Part shown: positions 23,381 through 28,264 of the stretch, one piece after another
How the letters are laid out: every line of letters begins with the position of its first letter
How positions within the stretch are numbered: the first letter of the stretch is position 1
Assembly: GCA_020247545.1 (NCBI GenBank)
Contig: JADCIX010000074.1
Location: 1 to 34,769, forward strand
Source: Rhodocyclaceae bacterium
GTDB lineage: Bacteria; Pseudomonadota; Gammaproteobacteria; Burkholderiales; Usitatibacteraceae
Reading direction: 5' to 3'
Length of the DNA: 34,769 nucleotides
Program-made: the position numbers and the translations under genes
Notes under the pieces: generated by a model
Databases searched by the model: none
The model's input: only the letters and a program-made list of their open reading frames with translations
Told to the model about the DNA's origin: nothing

Positions 23381-24589
23381 ATGAGTCAACCAACAGCGCA
23401 TCAATTGAAATCCGGACGCCGAGCCTTTCTCAAAGGCACGTCCGCACTAGCGCTAGCAGCATTGCCCGGCATTGCGTCGCGCGCGCGCGCGCAATCTGCG
23501 CAACAAAGGCTCGTCGTAATGGTTTACCTGAAGGGTGGCAACGACGGTTACAATACGCTCGCACCAGTTACCAATTCCCGCTATCGCAGGCTACGCCCCA
23601 ACCTCGCGCAGTCCCGCGAACAGGTGCTGATGCTTAACGAAACTCACGGATTGCACCGCAGCCTCGACGCGCTGCTTCCGCTCTGGCAAGACAATCAGCT
23701 AGCCATCCTGCAAGGGATTGGCCAGCAAGACGTCACCAACCAGCACTACCGCGATGCAGAAACCCTTTTCACCGCATCGCGACCGGATGAATTTCTGGTC
23801 GAAGGCTGGATGACACGCGCGTTAAACCAAAATGTGCAGCTCAAGCACAGCAACATCGATGTCGTCGCTTTCGGCGATTTGGACATTCGGGAAGCTGATC
23901 CGATGGGCCCGTTCCGTGGTGGAAACGCGGCGGTCGGCGTGGTCAATATGCTTTATCCCAAAGAGTGGCAGGCGCGCCATCGCGTATCGGAAACTGCCCA
24001 TCTCACCACTACCAAAGCGGGGCAGGCCGCAGAGACCTTTACACTCGACTCCGCGTCAACACTCAAGACAACTTTCCCCGGTGATTCATTCGGAGCCGCG
24101 CTGCAATCCACGGTCGAATTGGCAGCAGCCGGTAAAGCGCCTCCGGTCGTTCACATCACCCTCAACGCTGAGGATGGTGACCAGCACAATGCGTTTGATA
24201 CCCATTGGACACAACTCAAGTTCCACGGCCCCGTGTTGGAACGGCTAGCCAAAGGGTTGGCGGCGTTTCGTCGAGGAATGCAAGAAATCGGTCAATGGGA
24301 CGACACGCTGGTGTTTACCTACGACGAGTTTGGCCGCAGCCCAAAAGAAAATGCTGAAGGCGGAACCCATCACGGCTGGTCGAGTGTGCATTTCGCCATG
24401 GGTGGTCGCGTAAATGGCGGACTCATCGGTGAGGCAATGCCGGTGGTTGACGTGTTCCAAATTGATGGCCCTCCGCCGGTAATCGACTACCGTGCGTTGT
24501 ACACCACCGTCATCGAAAACTGGTGGGGGGGAAGTGCGAACGGCGTGTTCGCCAAACGCTTCAAGCCCCTTCCGCTGCTGCGCGCGTAG
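23381..24589 (+). CDS. DUF1501 protein with Tat signal
   Basis: The product has 402 residues from the ATG at 23381; a TTG at 23339 overlapping ubiG is an alternative. Residues 13-19 (RRAFLKG) and the hydrophobic stretch to ARA near 37 form a twin-arginine signal peptide, so the protein is exported folded. The body shows DUF1501 features: LVVMVYLKGGNDGYNTLAP, QDVTNQHYRDAETLF-like segments, and FTYDEFGRSPKENAEGGTHH near the C-terminus. DUF1501 is related to the alkaline phosphatase/sulfatase fold, but no substrate is established. It sits between ubiG and gph, which are usually adjacent in relatives, and may have been inserted there. The run of CG dinucleotides at 23477-23493 falls inside the signal peptide. 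Confidence 0.85.
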   Translation: MSQPTAHQLKSGRRAFLKGTSALALAALPGIASRARAQSAQQRLVVMVYLKGGNDGYNTLAPVTNSRYRRLRPNLAQSREQVLMLNETHGLHRSLDALLPLWQDNQLAILQGIGQQDVTNQHYRDAETLFTASRPDEFLVEGWMTRALNQNVQLKHSNIDVVAFGDLDIREADPMGPFRGGNAAVGVVNMLYPKEWQARHRVSETAHLTTTKAGQAAETFTLDSASTLKTTFPGDSFGAALQSTVELAAAGKAPPVVHITLNAEDGDQHNAFDTHWTQLKFHGPVLERLAKGLAAFRRGMQEIGQWDDTLVFTYDEFGRSPKENAEGGTHHGWSSVHFAMGGRVNGGLIGEAMPVVDVFQIDGPPPVIDYRALYTTVIENWWGGSANGVFAKRFKPLPLLRA

Positions 24590-24591
24590 CC

Positions 24592-25272
24592 TTGGTCAAC
24601 GACCTCTTACCATCACCGCGCGCGGTGCTGTTTGATTTCGACGGCACCTTTGCCGACACCGCACCGGATATGGCGTTTGCGGCAAATTTGCTTCGAAACG
24701 CCCGTGGATTGGACAGTTTGCCACTTTCTGACTACCGACCACACGTGTCGCGTGGTGGCCGCGGCATGATCGGTGTGGCCTTCAACAAGACACCCGATGA
24801 TGGCGAATTCGCGGCCCTTCGAGATGAATTCCACGATGTCTACGAAGCGAATCTTTGTCAGGGCACAACATTTTTTGACGGCATTGAAGAGACCATTGCC
24901 GAACTGGAACGGCGCACAATTGCTTGGGGTATTGTCACCAACAAGGCGACGCGCTTCACCGATCCCTTGATGAGTCGTCTCGGCTTGGATGTCCGCGCGC
25001 ATTGTGTTGTGAGTGGCGACACAACGCCGCATACCAAACCGCACCCGGCTCCGCTGTTACACGCCGCACAATTGCTCAGTCTGCCGGCGAGCGAGTGCTG
25101 GTATGTGGGCGACGACGAGCGCGATATCGTCGCCGCCCACGCAGCAGGCATGATTGGTGTGGCAGCTGCGTATGGTTATCTTGGCGGGAGCAATCCAGAA
25201 AGTTGGGGCGCACAAATCAGCATCACGCGGCCTGCCGAGTTAGTTGCATTTCTACCGCCCGCCCTAATCTAA
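24592..25272 (+). CDS. gph: Phosphoglycolate phosphatase (HAD family)
   Basis: Gph hydrolyses 2-phosphoglycolate formed by DNA repair or RubisCO. The likely start is the TTG at 24592, three bases after the DUF1501 stop, giving 226 residues, the family's usual size. An ATG at 24523 would add residues that only shadow DUF1501. HAD motif I is DFDGTFADT, with Phe instead of the usual Leu. Motif II is GIVTNKATR, motif III is the lysine in TKPHPAPLLHA, and motif IV is YVGDDERDIVAAHAAGM. Near relatives include HAD enzymes such as MupP, so the substrate is inferred from context (ubiG-gph). Confidence 0.85.
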   Translation: MVNDLLPSPRAVLFDFDGTFADTAPDMAFAANLLRNARGLDSLPLSDYRPHVSRGGRGMIGVAFNKTPDDGEFAALRDEFHDVYEANLCQGTTFFDGIEETIAELERRTIAWGIVTNKATRFTDPLMSRLGLDVRAHCVVSGDTTPHTKPHPAPLLHAAQLLSLPASECWYVGDDERDIVAAHAAGMIGVAAAYGYLGGSNPESWGAQISITRPAELVAFLPPALI

Positions 25273-25281
25273 TGCTCGTGA

Positions 25282-25287
25282 GATAAT
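25282..25287 (+). promoter_or_regulatory. Candidate -10 box of ssrA
   Basis: GATAAT lies 16 bases before the mature tmRNA 5' end, just past the gph stop. No good -35 box is present at the right distance. The true start of transcription would be a few bases before 25303, with RNase P making the mature end. Confidence 0.3.
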
Positions 25288-25302
25288 CACGCCATCGATT
25301 TC

Positions 25303-25666
25303 GGGGCCGACCTGGTTTCGACGTGGGCATCAAAGCAGAACCGTGCATACCGAGGGGCAGAGTACCTCGTAAATACAACTGCAAACAAATAGTCGCAAAC
25401 GACGAAAACTACGCACTAGCCGCTTAATAACCGGCCGCGCTCTGCACTAGTGGGCCTCAACGCTAGGTATCGTAAGGTACAGCAGAGTCATTAACGAGGA
25501 TCGCTTCCTGCCGGGCTACTTGGTAGGGAGTTAAATTAAGGTGGCTAGCGTCGCGTCAGCCCGGCCATTGGCGTACGTGGGGCGAAATCAAATAATGGAA
25601 TCTAAGTATGTAGATCGGCCTGTAGAGGGCTTGCGGACGCGGGTTCGATTCCCGCCGGCTCCACCA
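25303..25666 (+). ncRNA. ssrA: tmRNA (ssrA)
   Basis: The 364-base gene encodes transfer-messenger RNA, which frees stalled ribosomes and tags the unfinished protein for degradation. The 5' end GGGGCCG pairs with CGGCTCC at 25656-25662 as the acceptor stem, followed by discriminator A and an encoded CCA. GGTTCGATTCCCGCC forms the T arm. The tag frame begins at GCA 25395 and reads ANDENYALAA, followed by two stops (TAATAA), ending in the LAA motif recognised by ClpXP. Both halves of the tRNA-like domain are contiguous, so this is the one-piece form. Confidence 0.98.
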
Positions 25667-25866
25667 CTAAACAACAAAGCCACCCTTGCGGTGGCTTTGT
25701 TGTTTGGGTGAGTCGGTGTGGATGAGACCCCGCCTTCGGGTTCGACTAAGGTCAGTCCGGTGGACTGGCCTTGGACGCACAAACGTAGTGAGTGCGGTCC
25801 TGAGCGTCAGCGAGGGATGCTGGGATCGCTTTAAGCGATGCCAGCACATTCCCGCCGGCTCCACCA
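25667..25866 (+). repeat. Array unit 1
   Basis: The unit contains the terminator at 25669-25705. An 11-bp stem with a 3-nt loop follows at 25748-25772 (AAGGTCAGTCC/GGACTGGCCTT). A GGAC-GCAC/GTGC-GGTCC hairpin lies at about 25773-25800. A two-part hairpin lies at 25818-25846 (TGCTGG/CCAGCA and ATCGCT/AGCGAT). The tmRNA-end copy is at 25848-25866. Confidence 0.85.
25669..25705 (+). terminator. ssrA terminator (first of three copies)
   Basis: A perfect stem AACAACAAAGCCACC/GGTGGCTTTGTTGTT closes over a short loop a few bases after the tmRNA CCA. Near-identical copies lie at 25869-25907 and 26070-26106, differing mainly in the loop (CTTGC versus CTCGC). Confidence 0.9.
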
Positions 25867-26067
25867 CTAAACAACAAAGCCACCCTCGCGGTGGCTTTGT
25901 TGTTTTTGAAGGGTCGGCGTGGATGAGAACCCGCATTCGGGTTCGACTAAGGTCAGTCCAGTGGACTGGCCTTGGACGCACAAACGCAGTGAGTGCGGTC
26001 CTGAGCGTCAGCGAGGGATGCTGGGATCGCTTTAGGCGATGCCAGCACATTCCCGCCGGCTCCACCA
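25867..26067 (+). repeat. Array unit 2
   Basis: Same plan as unit 1. Its segment after the terminator (GAAGGGTCGGCG) differs from units 1 and 3, which share GGGTGAGTCGGTG. The short hairpin at about 25929-25944 has a perfect AACCCG/CGGGTT stem here, against a mismatched one in the other units. Confidence 0.85.
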
Positions 26068-26267
26068 CAAAACAACAAAGCCACCCTTGCGGTGGCTTTG
26101 TTGTTTGGGTGAGTCGGTGTGGATGAGACCCCGCCTTCGGGTTCGACTAAGGTCAGTCCGGTGGACTGGCCTTGGACGCACAAACGCAGTGAGTGCGGTC
26201 CTGAGCGCTAGCGAAGGATGCTGGGATCGCCCAAAGCGATACCAGCACATTCCCGCCGGCTCCACCA
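26068..26267 (+). repeat. Array unit 3
   Basis: Same plan as unit 1. The lower hairpin has its changes in the loop and at the internal mismatch (CGCCCAAAGCG in place of CGCTTTAAGCG). The final tmRNA-end copy at 26249-26267 is not followed by a further terminator. Confidence 0.85.
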
Positions 26268-26279
26268 ACAGCGTCCCCC

Positions 26280-27287
26280 CTACCCCAACACCGTCTTTGC
26301 CACATACGCATACAACGGTATTCCAACCAGAATATTCAGCGGAAATGTAATCCCTAGCGACAGCCCGAAGTAGAGCGACGGGTTCGCCTCCGGGATTGCG
26401 TACCTCAGGACGGCCGGTACAACAATGTACGAAGCGCTGGCCGAGAGCACCATTAGGATGGCCACATCGGCTGCGCTCATGCCAAGCATGGCACCGAGTA
26501 GTAATGCCAGACCCGCGTGCACCAGCGGGCCGACTGCTGCATAGGCGATAAGCACCGGCGAACTCTTGCGCGCATCAGCAAAATTTCGCGCGACCATCAG
26601 GCCCATATCGAGCAGGAAAAACGCCAGCATGCCCTTAAACAAATCCCCGGAGAACGGCTGCATCATTGTGCGGCCAGCCTCTCCGCTGATATAGCCTACC
26701 GCCATCGCGCCGAGCAGGAGCAAGTGTGCGCCGTCGGTAAATGATTCCTTCAGTATTTTTCCTACAGAAGGGTCATTTCCACTACCAACGCCGCCCAGCG
26801 CCAACGTACCTCCTGCGGATACCACAACATTCGACGAACTCTGGTGGCGAAGAACATTTGCCATGAGTACAGCCATGATGATCGCTGGAGACTCCATGAC
26901 AACCATGGCGACCGCCATATAGCCGCCAGGCTGCATATTACTTGCCTCAAGAAACTGCGTGGCCGTCACAAACGTAACGGCGCTAACCGAGCCGTAAGCC
27001 GCAGCCACTGCAGCAGCATCAAATTTAGCAATCCGGTTCCTCAGAAAGGCATAGCCTAATGCTGGTACCAGGAACGCCATAAAAATTGCCGCGCCAAGTG
27101 CAATTGCCGCGGTATCTGTCATACCCGACCTGGCCATGGCAAAACCGCCTTTTAGACCGAGCGCCATCAGTAGGTACATTGATAGAAATTTTGCAATCGA
27201 CGGCGGTATTTCGAGATTAGATTTAACCGCGCCGGCGAAGATACCGACGAGGAAAAACAAAATTGCAGGATCGATTAAATTTTGCAT
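26280..27287 (-). CDS. SbtA-family sodium-dependent bicarbonate transporter
   Basis: The product has 335 residues from the ATG at 27287, preceded by AAGGGAATC. It belongs to the SbtA/DUF897 family (PF05982), inner-membrane permeases that in cyanobacteria import bicarbonate with sodium. About ten hydrophobic segments form two halves around a central hydrophilic stretch (RHQSSSNVV...GNDPSVGKILKESF). Family marks are AAAYGSVSAVTF, VVMESPAIIMAVL and SASASYIVVPAVLRYAIPEANPSLY. No SbtB (PII-like) gene is adjacent. Outside autotrophs the substrate is less certain; supply of bicarbonate to carboxylases is a reasonable guess. Confidence 0.88.
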   Translation of the reverse strand: MQNLIDPAILFFLVGIFAGAVKSNLEIPPSIAKFLSMYLLMALGLKGGFAMARSGMTDTAAIALGAAIFMAFLVPALGYAFLRNRIAKFDAAAVAAAYGSVSAVTFVTATQFLEASNMQPGGYMAVAMVVMESPAIIMAVLMANVLRHQSSSNVVVSAGGTLALGGVGSGNDPSVGKILKESFTDGAHLLLLGAMAVGYISGEAGRTMMQPFSGDLFKGMLAFFLLDMGLMVARNFADARKSSPVLIAYAAVGPLVHAGLALLLGAMLGMSAADVAILMVLSASASYIVVPAVLRYAIPEANPSLYFGLSLGITFPLNILVGIPLYAYVAKTVLG

Positions 27288-27376
27288 GGTGATTCCCTTT
27301 TCATGGAAGACCACAGCATTTTGCGGAGCGCTACCATTTTAGTAAAATAGATTGATGTTAACGATCCGTTCTATTT
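27288..27376. promoter_or_regulatory. Divergent control region with palindrome, sbtA-like/LysR
   Basis: The 89-bp gap between the divergent genes contains ATTTTA-G-TAAAAT at 27336-27348, a palindrome of the size and AT-content expected of a LysR-type operator. GTTAAC at about 27358-27363 forms a second symmetrical element. LysR regulators usually bind such sites to control the divergent target and themselves. Promoter boxes could not be assigned. Confidence 0.5.
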
Positions 27377-28264
27377 ATGCGAACTATTGACCTCAAGCGC
27401 CTAAACTTTCACCACCTGCATTACTTCTGGGTGGTGGCGAAGGACGGCAATCTGACCCGCGCCGCTGGTCAACTGCACATTTCACAATCGGCGTTGTCCT
27501 CACAAATTCGCCGTCTGGAGGATCAACTCGGCCACGCCCTGTTTGATCGGGAAGGCCGCGCGCTGCGGCTGACCGAAGTGGGCCATGTCGTGCTCGGTTA
27601 TGCCGAGGGCATATTCAATCTGGGTCGCGAATTGATCTCATCGGTGAGCGGTGGCGAAGGCCAGGCCAGCCAGCAGCTGCGCATTGGTGCGGTTGCAACC
27701 CTATCGCGCAACTTTCTTGAAAATTTCCTGCGCCCCGCGTTCGACGATACGCAACTTCTACTTGCGCTGGAGTCGGCCAGCCTTGAGGAACTCTTAGAGC
27801 GCATGCGTGTGCACAAACTGGATCTGATTCTGTCAAACCGACCAGTGGTACCAGACATGCAACATTCGTGGCGCTGCAAGCGTATCGCCCGCCAGCCGGT
27901 TTGCCTGGTAGGCCCACCGATGAAGCGGAACCGTAAATTTCGTTTTCCTGACGATTTGCCCACCGTCAAGCTGTTGTTACCGGGCCGCAGTAGTGATATT
28001 CGCACCCAGTTTGAGCTGCTGTGTGAGGATCTGTCGATCACCGCTCGTCCATATGCAGAGGTTGACGACATGGCAATGTTGCGTTTACTCGCGCGAGATT
28101 CAGGCGGGGTCGCGCTGGTGCCGGAAGTGGTCGTCCAAGACGAACTCAAGTCGGGAGTGCTGCAAAAATACTGCGAGCTACCCAAGGTGGTTGAAAACTT
28201 CTACTCGATCACAACTGAGCGACAGTTTCAGCCGTCTGCGTTAAAGCGGCTGCTTGCCGGCTGA
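27377..28264 (+). CDS. LysR-family transcriptional regulator
   Basis: The 295 residues begin with a winged helix-turn-helix of the LysR type: LNFHHLHYFWVVAKDGNLTR, then AAGQLHISQSALSSQIRRLE and LGHALFDREGRALRLTEVG. The rest is a periplasmic-binding-like effector domain. The N-terminus (LNFHHLHYFWVVAKDGNLT) resembles NhaR-type regulators. Divergence from the SbtA-like gene suggests it controls that transporter, as CcmR/CmpR do in cyanobacteria. The effector is unknown. Confidence 0.9.
   Translation: MRTIDLKRLNFHHLHYFWVVAKDGNLTRAAGQLHISQSALSSQIRRLEDQLGHALFDREGRALRLTEVGHVVLGYAEGIFNLGRELISSVSGGEGQASQQLRIGAVATLSRNFLENFLRPAFDDTQLLLALESASLEELLERMRVHKLDLILSNRPVVPDMQHSWRCKRIARQPVCLVGPPMKRNRKFRFPDDLPTVKLLLPGRSSDIRTQFELLCEDLSITARPYAEVDDMAMLRLLARDSGGVALVPEVVVQDELKSGVLQKYCELPKVVENFYSITTERQFQPSALKRLLAG

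Follow-up and report, generated by a model that had tools for sequence, protein, structure and literature searches.

The window analysed here is a stretch of 34,769 nucleotides making up contig JADCIX010000074.1 of a Rhodocyclaceae bacterium. It contains an intact tmRNA gene (ssrA) at 25303-25666 on the forward strand, found by ARAGORN and by the Rfam model RF00023 (215.9 bits), with the tag peptide ANDENYALAA. The last 19 nt of the tmRNA (25648-25666), corresponding to A58-A76, form the 19-mer ATTCCCGCCGGCTCCACCA, and exact copies of this begin at 25848, 26049 and 26249. With up to three mismatches allowed, the window has no match besides these and the tmRNA end; shuffled sequence yields a mean of 0.01 copies, and four were reached in 0 of 100 shuffles. 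The direct repeats are 219 nt long, at spacings of 201 and 200. An earlier note on this DNA had described four copies of the 19-mer, the first being the real ssrA end, and three tandem units of about 200 bp; both descriptions are accurate, and the repeats behind the tmRNA are real and not an artefact.

The three units follow the tmRNA directly on the forward strand, and each is closed by an exact copy of A58-A76. Unit 1 (25667-25866, 200 bp) has a hairpin at 25669-25705, a core at 25737-25800 and the tmRNA-end copy at 25848-25866. The corresponding elements lie at 25869-25905, 25938-26001 and 26049-26067 in unit 2 (25867-26067, 201 bp), and at 26070-26106, 26138-26201 and 26249-26267 in unit 3 (26068-26267, 200 bp). 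A protein-coding reading of the units is rejected, since lengths of 200, 201 and 200 break the frame. The right border of the array is a convergent gene of the Sbt_1 type (26280-27314, reverse strand; Pfam PF05982, Na+-dependent bicarbonate transporter superfamily), which is not part of the array and whose stop codon lies 12 bp past its end.

A hairpin of 16 bp stands at the start of each unit, and thus after each of tmRNA-end copies 1-3. By appearance these are terminators, with a GC stem followed by the T-rich TTTGTTGTTT. The suggestion that the array holds three copies of the ssrA terminator is therefore borne out in position and appearance, but a rule-based terminator search of 25150-26500 found none. 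No terminator-like hairpin is seen after the fourth copy, at the end of unit 3. The single promoter-like match falls within the tmRNA. Given this, and the terminator-like hairpin ahead of every unit, transcription of the units is an assumption.

Within a unit the order of elements is the hairpin, a 5′ arm, GGATGAGA, a small hairpin ending GGGTTCGAC, two hairpins that make up the 64-nt core, further hairpins, CAC and the copied end. The predicted fold of unit 1, from the foot of the hairpin to CCA, is a single closed multi-branched structure with a minimum free energy of -90.7 kcal/mol (z = -7.2; equally low in 0 of 200 shuffles). In the predicted closing stem 25707-25724 pairs with 25847-25865, so that the copied tmRNA end provides its 3′ strand; the arm duplex of a window unit has an energy of -24.7 kcal/mol, G-U pairs included. 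All three units share an inner stretch of 181-182 bp, a single structured sequence that has relatives at other host genes. For the unit core we built a covariance model, here called R1, from eight sequences with 19 pairs. In its alignment (seven distinct rows) six pairs change on both sides, and the covariation score is 0.326 vs 0.123 for shuffled alignments.

Comparison of the two strands points to RNA rather than DNA. Among 59 distinct units the sense strand is the more stable in 44 (Wilcoxon p 3e-7) and has the lower shuffle z in 39 (p 0.003), both p values being optimistic as the units are related; the strand and permutation tests alike use related, non-independent sequences. The z-scores of the antisense strand are low too, the mean shuffle z being -4.3 for sense and -3.7 for antisense. 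We suggest that G-U pairs are the source of the asymmetry, which favours selection acting on a transcript. The units are most likely an RNA.

The history of the array can be read in part from the differences between its units. Units 1-3, set beside the first unit from a relative (G008), have 20 variable columns between them, two of which (2 and 121) fall outside two blocks. In the left block (columns 21-94) units 1 and 3 agree against unit 2 in all 10 informative columns, as expected from the earlier view that these two are closer and unit 2 stands apart. That view fails in the right block (columns 142-175), where unit 1 agrees with unit 2 against unit 3 in seven of eight informative columns; here the G008 unit equals unit 3 in 8/8. 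The best reading of unit 1 is that of a recombinant, whose sequence is a mosaic of type 3 and type 2. Thus the proposal of a tandem expansion not readily explained by simple end-to-end slippage is supported, with recombination inside the array. The units would have multiplied by unequal recombination or conversion between repeats, a mechanism suggested by the mosaic.

How widely do such units occur? A search with unit 1 finds a related pair behind tRNA-His in the same genome, and homologous units lie there behind both tRNA-His and tRNA-Gly. The idea that the unit might be found only here is thus contradicted by homologues behind other tRNA genes, in this genome and in relatives. Model R1 gives 24 matches in six of 13 genomes of the genus, and nine of these fall on four contigs of the genome that the window comes from. 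In the order it has matches in at least 19 of 399 genomes; because filtering was stricter in the searches of order, class and phylum, with few candidates scored in each genome, the numbers from them are minimum values. The hosts with a recognisable end copy found with R1 are tmRNA and the tRNAs for His, Gly, Ser, Phe, Leu and Ala, and for a Glu host the end is copied in part only. Host genes vary between species of the genus. Some of the units found are decayed or have no full end copy. At L013/L064 (G003:C1:1809633), L090, L097 and L100 ARAGORN finds no tRNA or tmRNA upstream; these units are possibly orphans, some of whose ends and 5′ arms are still like those of Leu or Ser tRNA.

The copied end follows the host. 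A tRNA or tmRNA lies no more than 85 nt upstream of 38 of the 71 core matches (L085 and L102, both among them, are the same sequence from two collections), and in 32 of these 38 units the copy fits its own host above every unlike host end. Allowing up to two mismatches over A58-A76 gives 66 distinct tRNA-copy pairs, 49 of them exact (loci L009, L010 and L058-L180). Seven, six of them exact, are second full tRNA genes and were set aside, leaving 59 unit copies, 43 of which are exact. The boundary is sharp: in 58 of the 59 the match to the host stops at A58, the preceding base differing from host G57. That base is instead part of a motif of the unit (GAGT/GAAT or CAC) that varies rather little.

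Judged by its sequence, the 5′ arm is complementary to the 3′ end of its host and changes with the host from gene to gene. With G-U pairs allowed, the duplex energies of arms with their own ends (61 units, 26 host ends) sum to -1303, compared with a permuted mean of -982 and a minimum of -1068, so that none of 5000 permutations is as low. In 36 of the 61 units the own end gives a better duplex than any unlike end, and in 53 it lies below the unlike-end mean. Under strict Watson-Crick pairing the own host wins in 18 of 38 units, and the test fails in the other 20, unit 1 of the window included. Some arms are perfect complements, with TGG for CCA, as for tRNA-Ser in L094 and tRNA-His in L058.

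This architecture has a counterpart in E. coli. The tyrT repeats have been known for decades, and we know of no agreed function for them. They are 178 bp long (RtT in Rfam, RF00391; gene rttR) and, as in the window, stand in tandem behind a tRNA, each unit ending in the host A58-A76 with CCA and carrying a 5′ arm that is the complement of this end. In K-12 there are three units at tyrT, with ends AATCCTTCCCCCACCACCA and 5′ arm GGGGAAGGATGAGAAGC. Both arrays contain GGATGAGA and GAGCGTCAGCGAG, and also TTCGACTAAGG, which in K-12 is present in one unit of the three. The window differs in having tmRNA as host, in its betaproteobacterial lineage, in the terminator-like hairpin ahead of each unit and in the greater length of the two hairpins past GGTTCGAC.

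The Rfam model does not reach this far. RF00391 (gathering score 45 bits) has no match in 24500-27500 of the window even at E ≤5, and none in the window's genome. In an Rfam search over the array the tmRNA alone is above threshold, the 13 other matches listed being below theirs. We therefore describe the window units as RtT-like, and not as members of RF00391. Within the class, RF00391 has matches in at least 50 of 274 genomes, 18 of them above the cut-off. We inspected 30 RtT loci of the class: 23 have a copy of the upstream host end at up to four mismatches (hosts Gln, Tyr, Ser and tmRNA), three have a tRNA but no copy, and at four no tRNA was found upstream.

R1 is too narrow for E. coli tyrT, to which it gives no more than 6.3 bits. 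We therefore made a second model, R2, combining a single tyrT unit of E. coli with a manual selection of 18 of the 30 loci; the other 12 were excluded from the alignment (A5) by hand, mostly because their 5′ loops were long or odd. Run on the whole window with filters off, R2 ranks the three units first to third among 18 matches listed: unit 2 at 28.7 bits (25918-26067), unit 3 at 19.3 bits (26118-26267) and unit 1 at 19.1 bits (25717-25866), all on the forward strand, the next match scoring 12.3 bits. The E-values run from 1e-4 to 1e-2 on a rough calibration, units 1 and 3 reaching only about 0.01. The 3′ end of the tmRNA alone receives 11.5 bits, and so part of the units' score comes from the tRNA-like copied end. 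On 58 further sources (the R1 loci and three tmRNA loci) R2 gives 30 matches at E ≤0.05, in 24 of the 58.

In the phylum R2 has matches in at least 62 of 299 genomes, some outside the class, a search that failed to pick up the window's own genome. Of 20 loci from it, 17 have a host-end copy at up to four mismatches (10 of 12 outside the class and seven of eight within), the hosts being Ser, Lys, Gln, Asp, Tyr and Arg tRNAs. One RtT-like unit of the same class (G458, L154) shares its type of host gene with the window, standing behind tmRNA with GGCGGTGTGGATGAGAGCCCGCGTTCGGGTTCGAC where the window has GTCGGTGTGGATGAGACCCCGCCTTCGGGTTCGAC. It differs in having inner hairpins of the gamma type (GGCCC..AGGGTGAGG), and it scores 42.6 bits with RF00391 against the cut-off of 45, where the window has no match. 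A second kind of unit stands behind tmRNA in three genomes (L034, L028 and L027, in G003, G010 and G004, respectively). Its core differs, with a hairpin GCGTCCGG..CGGACGC, its end is the tmRNA end or a near copy, and its architecture is similar to that of the window units; these units have no R2 match at E ≤0.05.

Units of the E. coli type occur in 4655 of 5426 E. coli genomes, at 1-9 places each (median two; diverged units may be missed, and not every place was checked as tyrT). Copy number thus changes within the species. K-12 has a further RtT match upstream of tyrV (L025:1864-1995). The occurrence of RtT near several tRNAs is already in print. A passage of PMC4986893 cites release of a stable RNA from the E. 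coli tyrT transcript, and others concern an enterobacterial attenuator cluster resembling rtT (PMC2965389), a Thioalkalivibrio RtT sRNA upregulated in the cold (PMC8092127) and RtT-labelled RNAs among those detected by RNA-seq in Pectobacterium (PMC4710047). In the part of PubMed Central searched, no title describes tmRNA-hosted units, a beta branch, the A58 rule or a host-tracking arm, which does not establish their absence from print.

Taken together, the array is likely to consist of three tandem RtT-like structured RNA units of the E. coli tyrT kind, linked to tmRNA in a betaproteobacterium and amplified within the array. The units would be transcribed in the direction of the tmRNA by read-through of the preceding hairpin, and each RNA is predicted to fold into a closed multi-hairpin structure. 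Its predicted closing helix has the copy of host positions 58-76 as 3′ strand and the complementary arm as 5′ strand, as shown by the sequence, the predicted fold and the tracking of the host among relatives. In E. coli the annotated rttR RNA stops at the CCA of a unit, and by this analogy the RNA is probably released with a tRNA-like matured 3′ end.

An alternative is that the unit is selfish DNA, mobilised passively by a recombinase acting in trans, which inserts at tRNA and tmRNA 3′ ends by virtue of a T-loop/3′-end identity segment, the copied end being its attachment site. The variety of host genes, the patchy occurrence in six of 13 genomes of the genus, the ending of host matches at A58 and the units with no adjoining tRNA would all suit such an element. 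So would chimeric tRNAs, of which we find eight (His, Gly and Ser), in which the 5′ part of a tRNA is joined to a unit core directly past the T-loop GGTTCGA. They lie at L076, L069, L059:482, L086:1833, L091:1501, L111:2944, L110:2981 and, in the window's own genome, G000:C47:29357-29623. In five of the eight an intact tRNA of the same kind begins 93-140 nt past the core, the tRNA part being identical in three, over 56, 56 and 70 nt; the His chimeras of G000, G008 and G009 have a similarly altered anticodon arm. A deletion from the GGTTCGA of the tRNA to the one in the unit, spanning the palindrome that the tRNA end, the hairpin and the 5′ arm make up, would account for the chimeras.

The relationships between units argue against movement of this kind. 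We compared 56 cores, from the 71 matches after dropping 14 that were too short and one duplicate (22 of the 56 host labels were assigned by eye). Leaving aside units at the same host in the same genome, 37 cores have their nearest relative at the same host gene in a different genome, 17 at a different host in a different genome, and only two at a different host in the same genome. The units have mostly been inherited with the host gene, and the 17 show that hosts were changed in the past. Within a single genome, units at different hosts are never nearly identical, the closest pair of this sort reaching 0.55 of the maximum score, and no recent transposition is seen. The passively moving minimal element suggested in the earlier note therefore finds no recent event in its favour. 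Furthermore, integrase sites need no host-specific 5′ arm, and the strand asymmetry favours RNA. A Pfam scan of 10 ORFs around the array (21.3-33.4 kb) gives no match to an integrase family, and two of these ORFs match no family at all. We regard a mobile DNA unit as improbable.

The units could also be a decayed piece downstream of the tmRNA that was duplicated neutrally in tandem, its fold being a by-product of palindromes and GC content. The variable copy number in E. coli, and the several units that are decayed or without a full end copy, are in keeping with this. Against it stand the conservation of motifs and arms over classes, the covariation in the core, the arms that track their hosts and the z-score of the fold, and we consider neutral duplication somewhat less probable still than mobile DNA.

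Remnants of stacked genomic islands, each leaving one attachment site, had also been proposed. The 3′ ends of tmRNA and tRNA genes are known integrase sites. Attachment sites there resemble the window in their 3′-end direct repeat and T-loop boundary, and the premise that a tmRNA end can serve in this way is confirmed within the genus, where a tyrosine-integrase gene directly adjoins the intact tmRNA of G012 (L032:92-1417, no unit seen). Thus the same tmRNA end serves as an island site in the genus, a point in favour of mobile DNA as well. In G010 an ORF of 126 aa (L028:2129-2509) lies just past the tmRNA unit, and its start aligns with the G012 integrase (21/51 identical); it has no Pfam match at E 0.001, and is perhaps, from this alignment, the remnant of an integrase whose site was the end copy of the unit. 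Yet the window, unlike such sites, has a conserved RNA-like core in each of its 200-bp units, and the 10 ORFs scanned near the array include no integrase family. The inner sequence is a single structured entity with relatives at other hosts, on a plan common to several genera and classes, and stacked islands are very improbable. We also considered that the 5′ arm, TGG with the complement of the host end, might be the primer-binding site of a retroelement.

We return to the reading of the array as RtT-like RNA units. In our opinion the unit RNA is most likely a putative companion resembling a tRNA minihelix, acting on its own host RNA in maturation or turnover. More tentatively, and as a possibility we would put below even chances by some way, RtT-like units may form a class of companion RNAs, each matched to its host, that is general among proteobacteria. 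They would stand behind at least 10 kinds of tRNA gene and tmRNA, have a minihelix-like closing stem derived from a copy of the host 3′ half, and compete for or report on the 3′-end processing of that RNA, with copy number setting the dose.

The window array is apparently related to the RtT/tyrT repeats as a tmRNA-linked, betaproteobacterial variant with no sign of recent mobility. The same plan is seen downstream of tmRNA and numerous tRNA genes, in betaproteobacteria, gammaproteobacteria and one or more other classes of the phylum. It explains one kind of duplication of tRNA and tmRNA 3′ ends that might otherwise be mistaken for the scars of islands. Given that the copy of host A58-A76 and the matching 5′ arm recur across hosts, the function of the units can be tested by comparing host identity, by swapping arms and by varying copy number.
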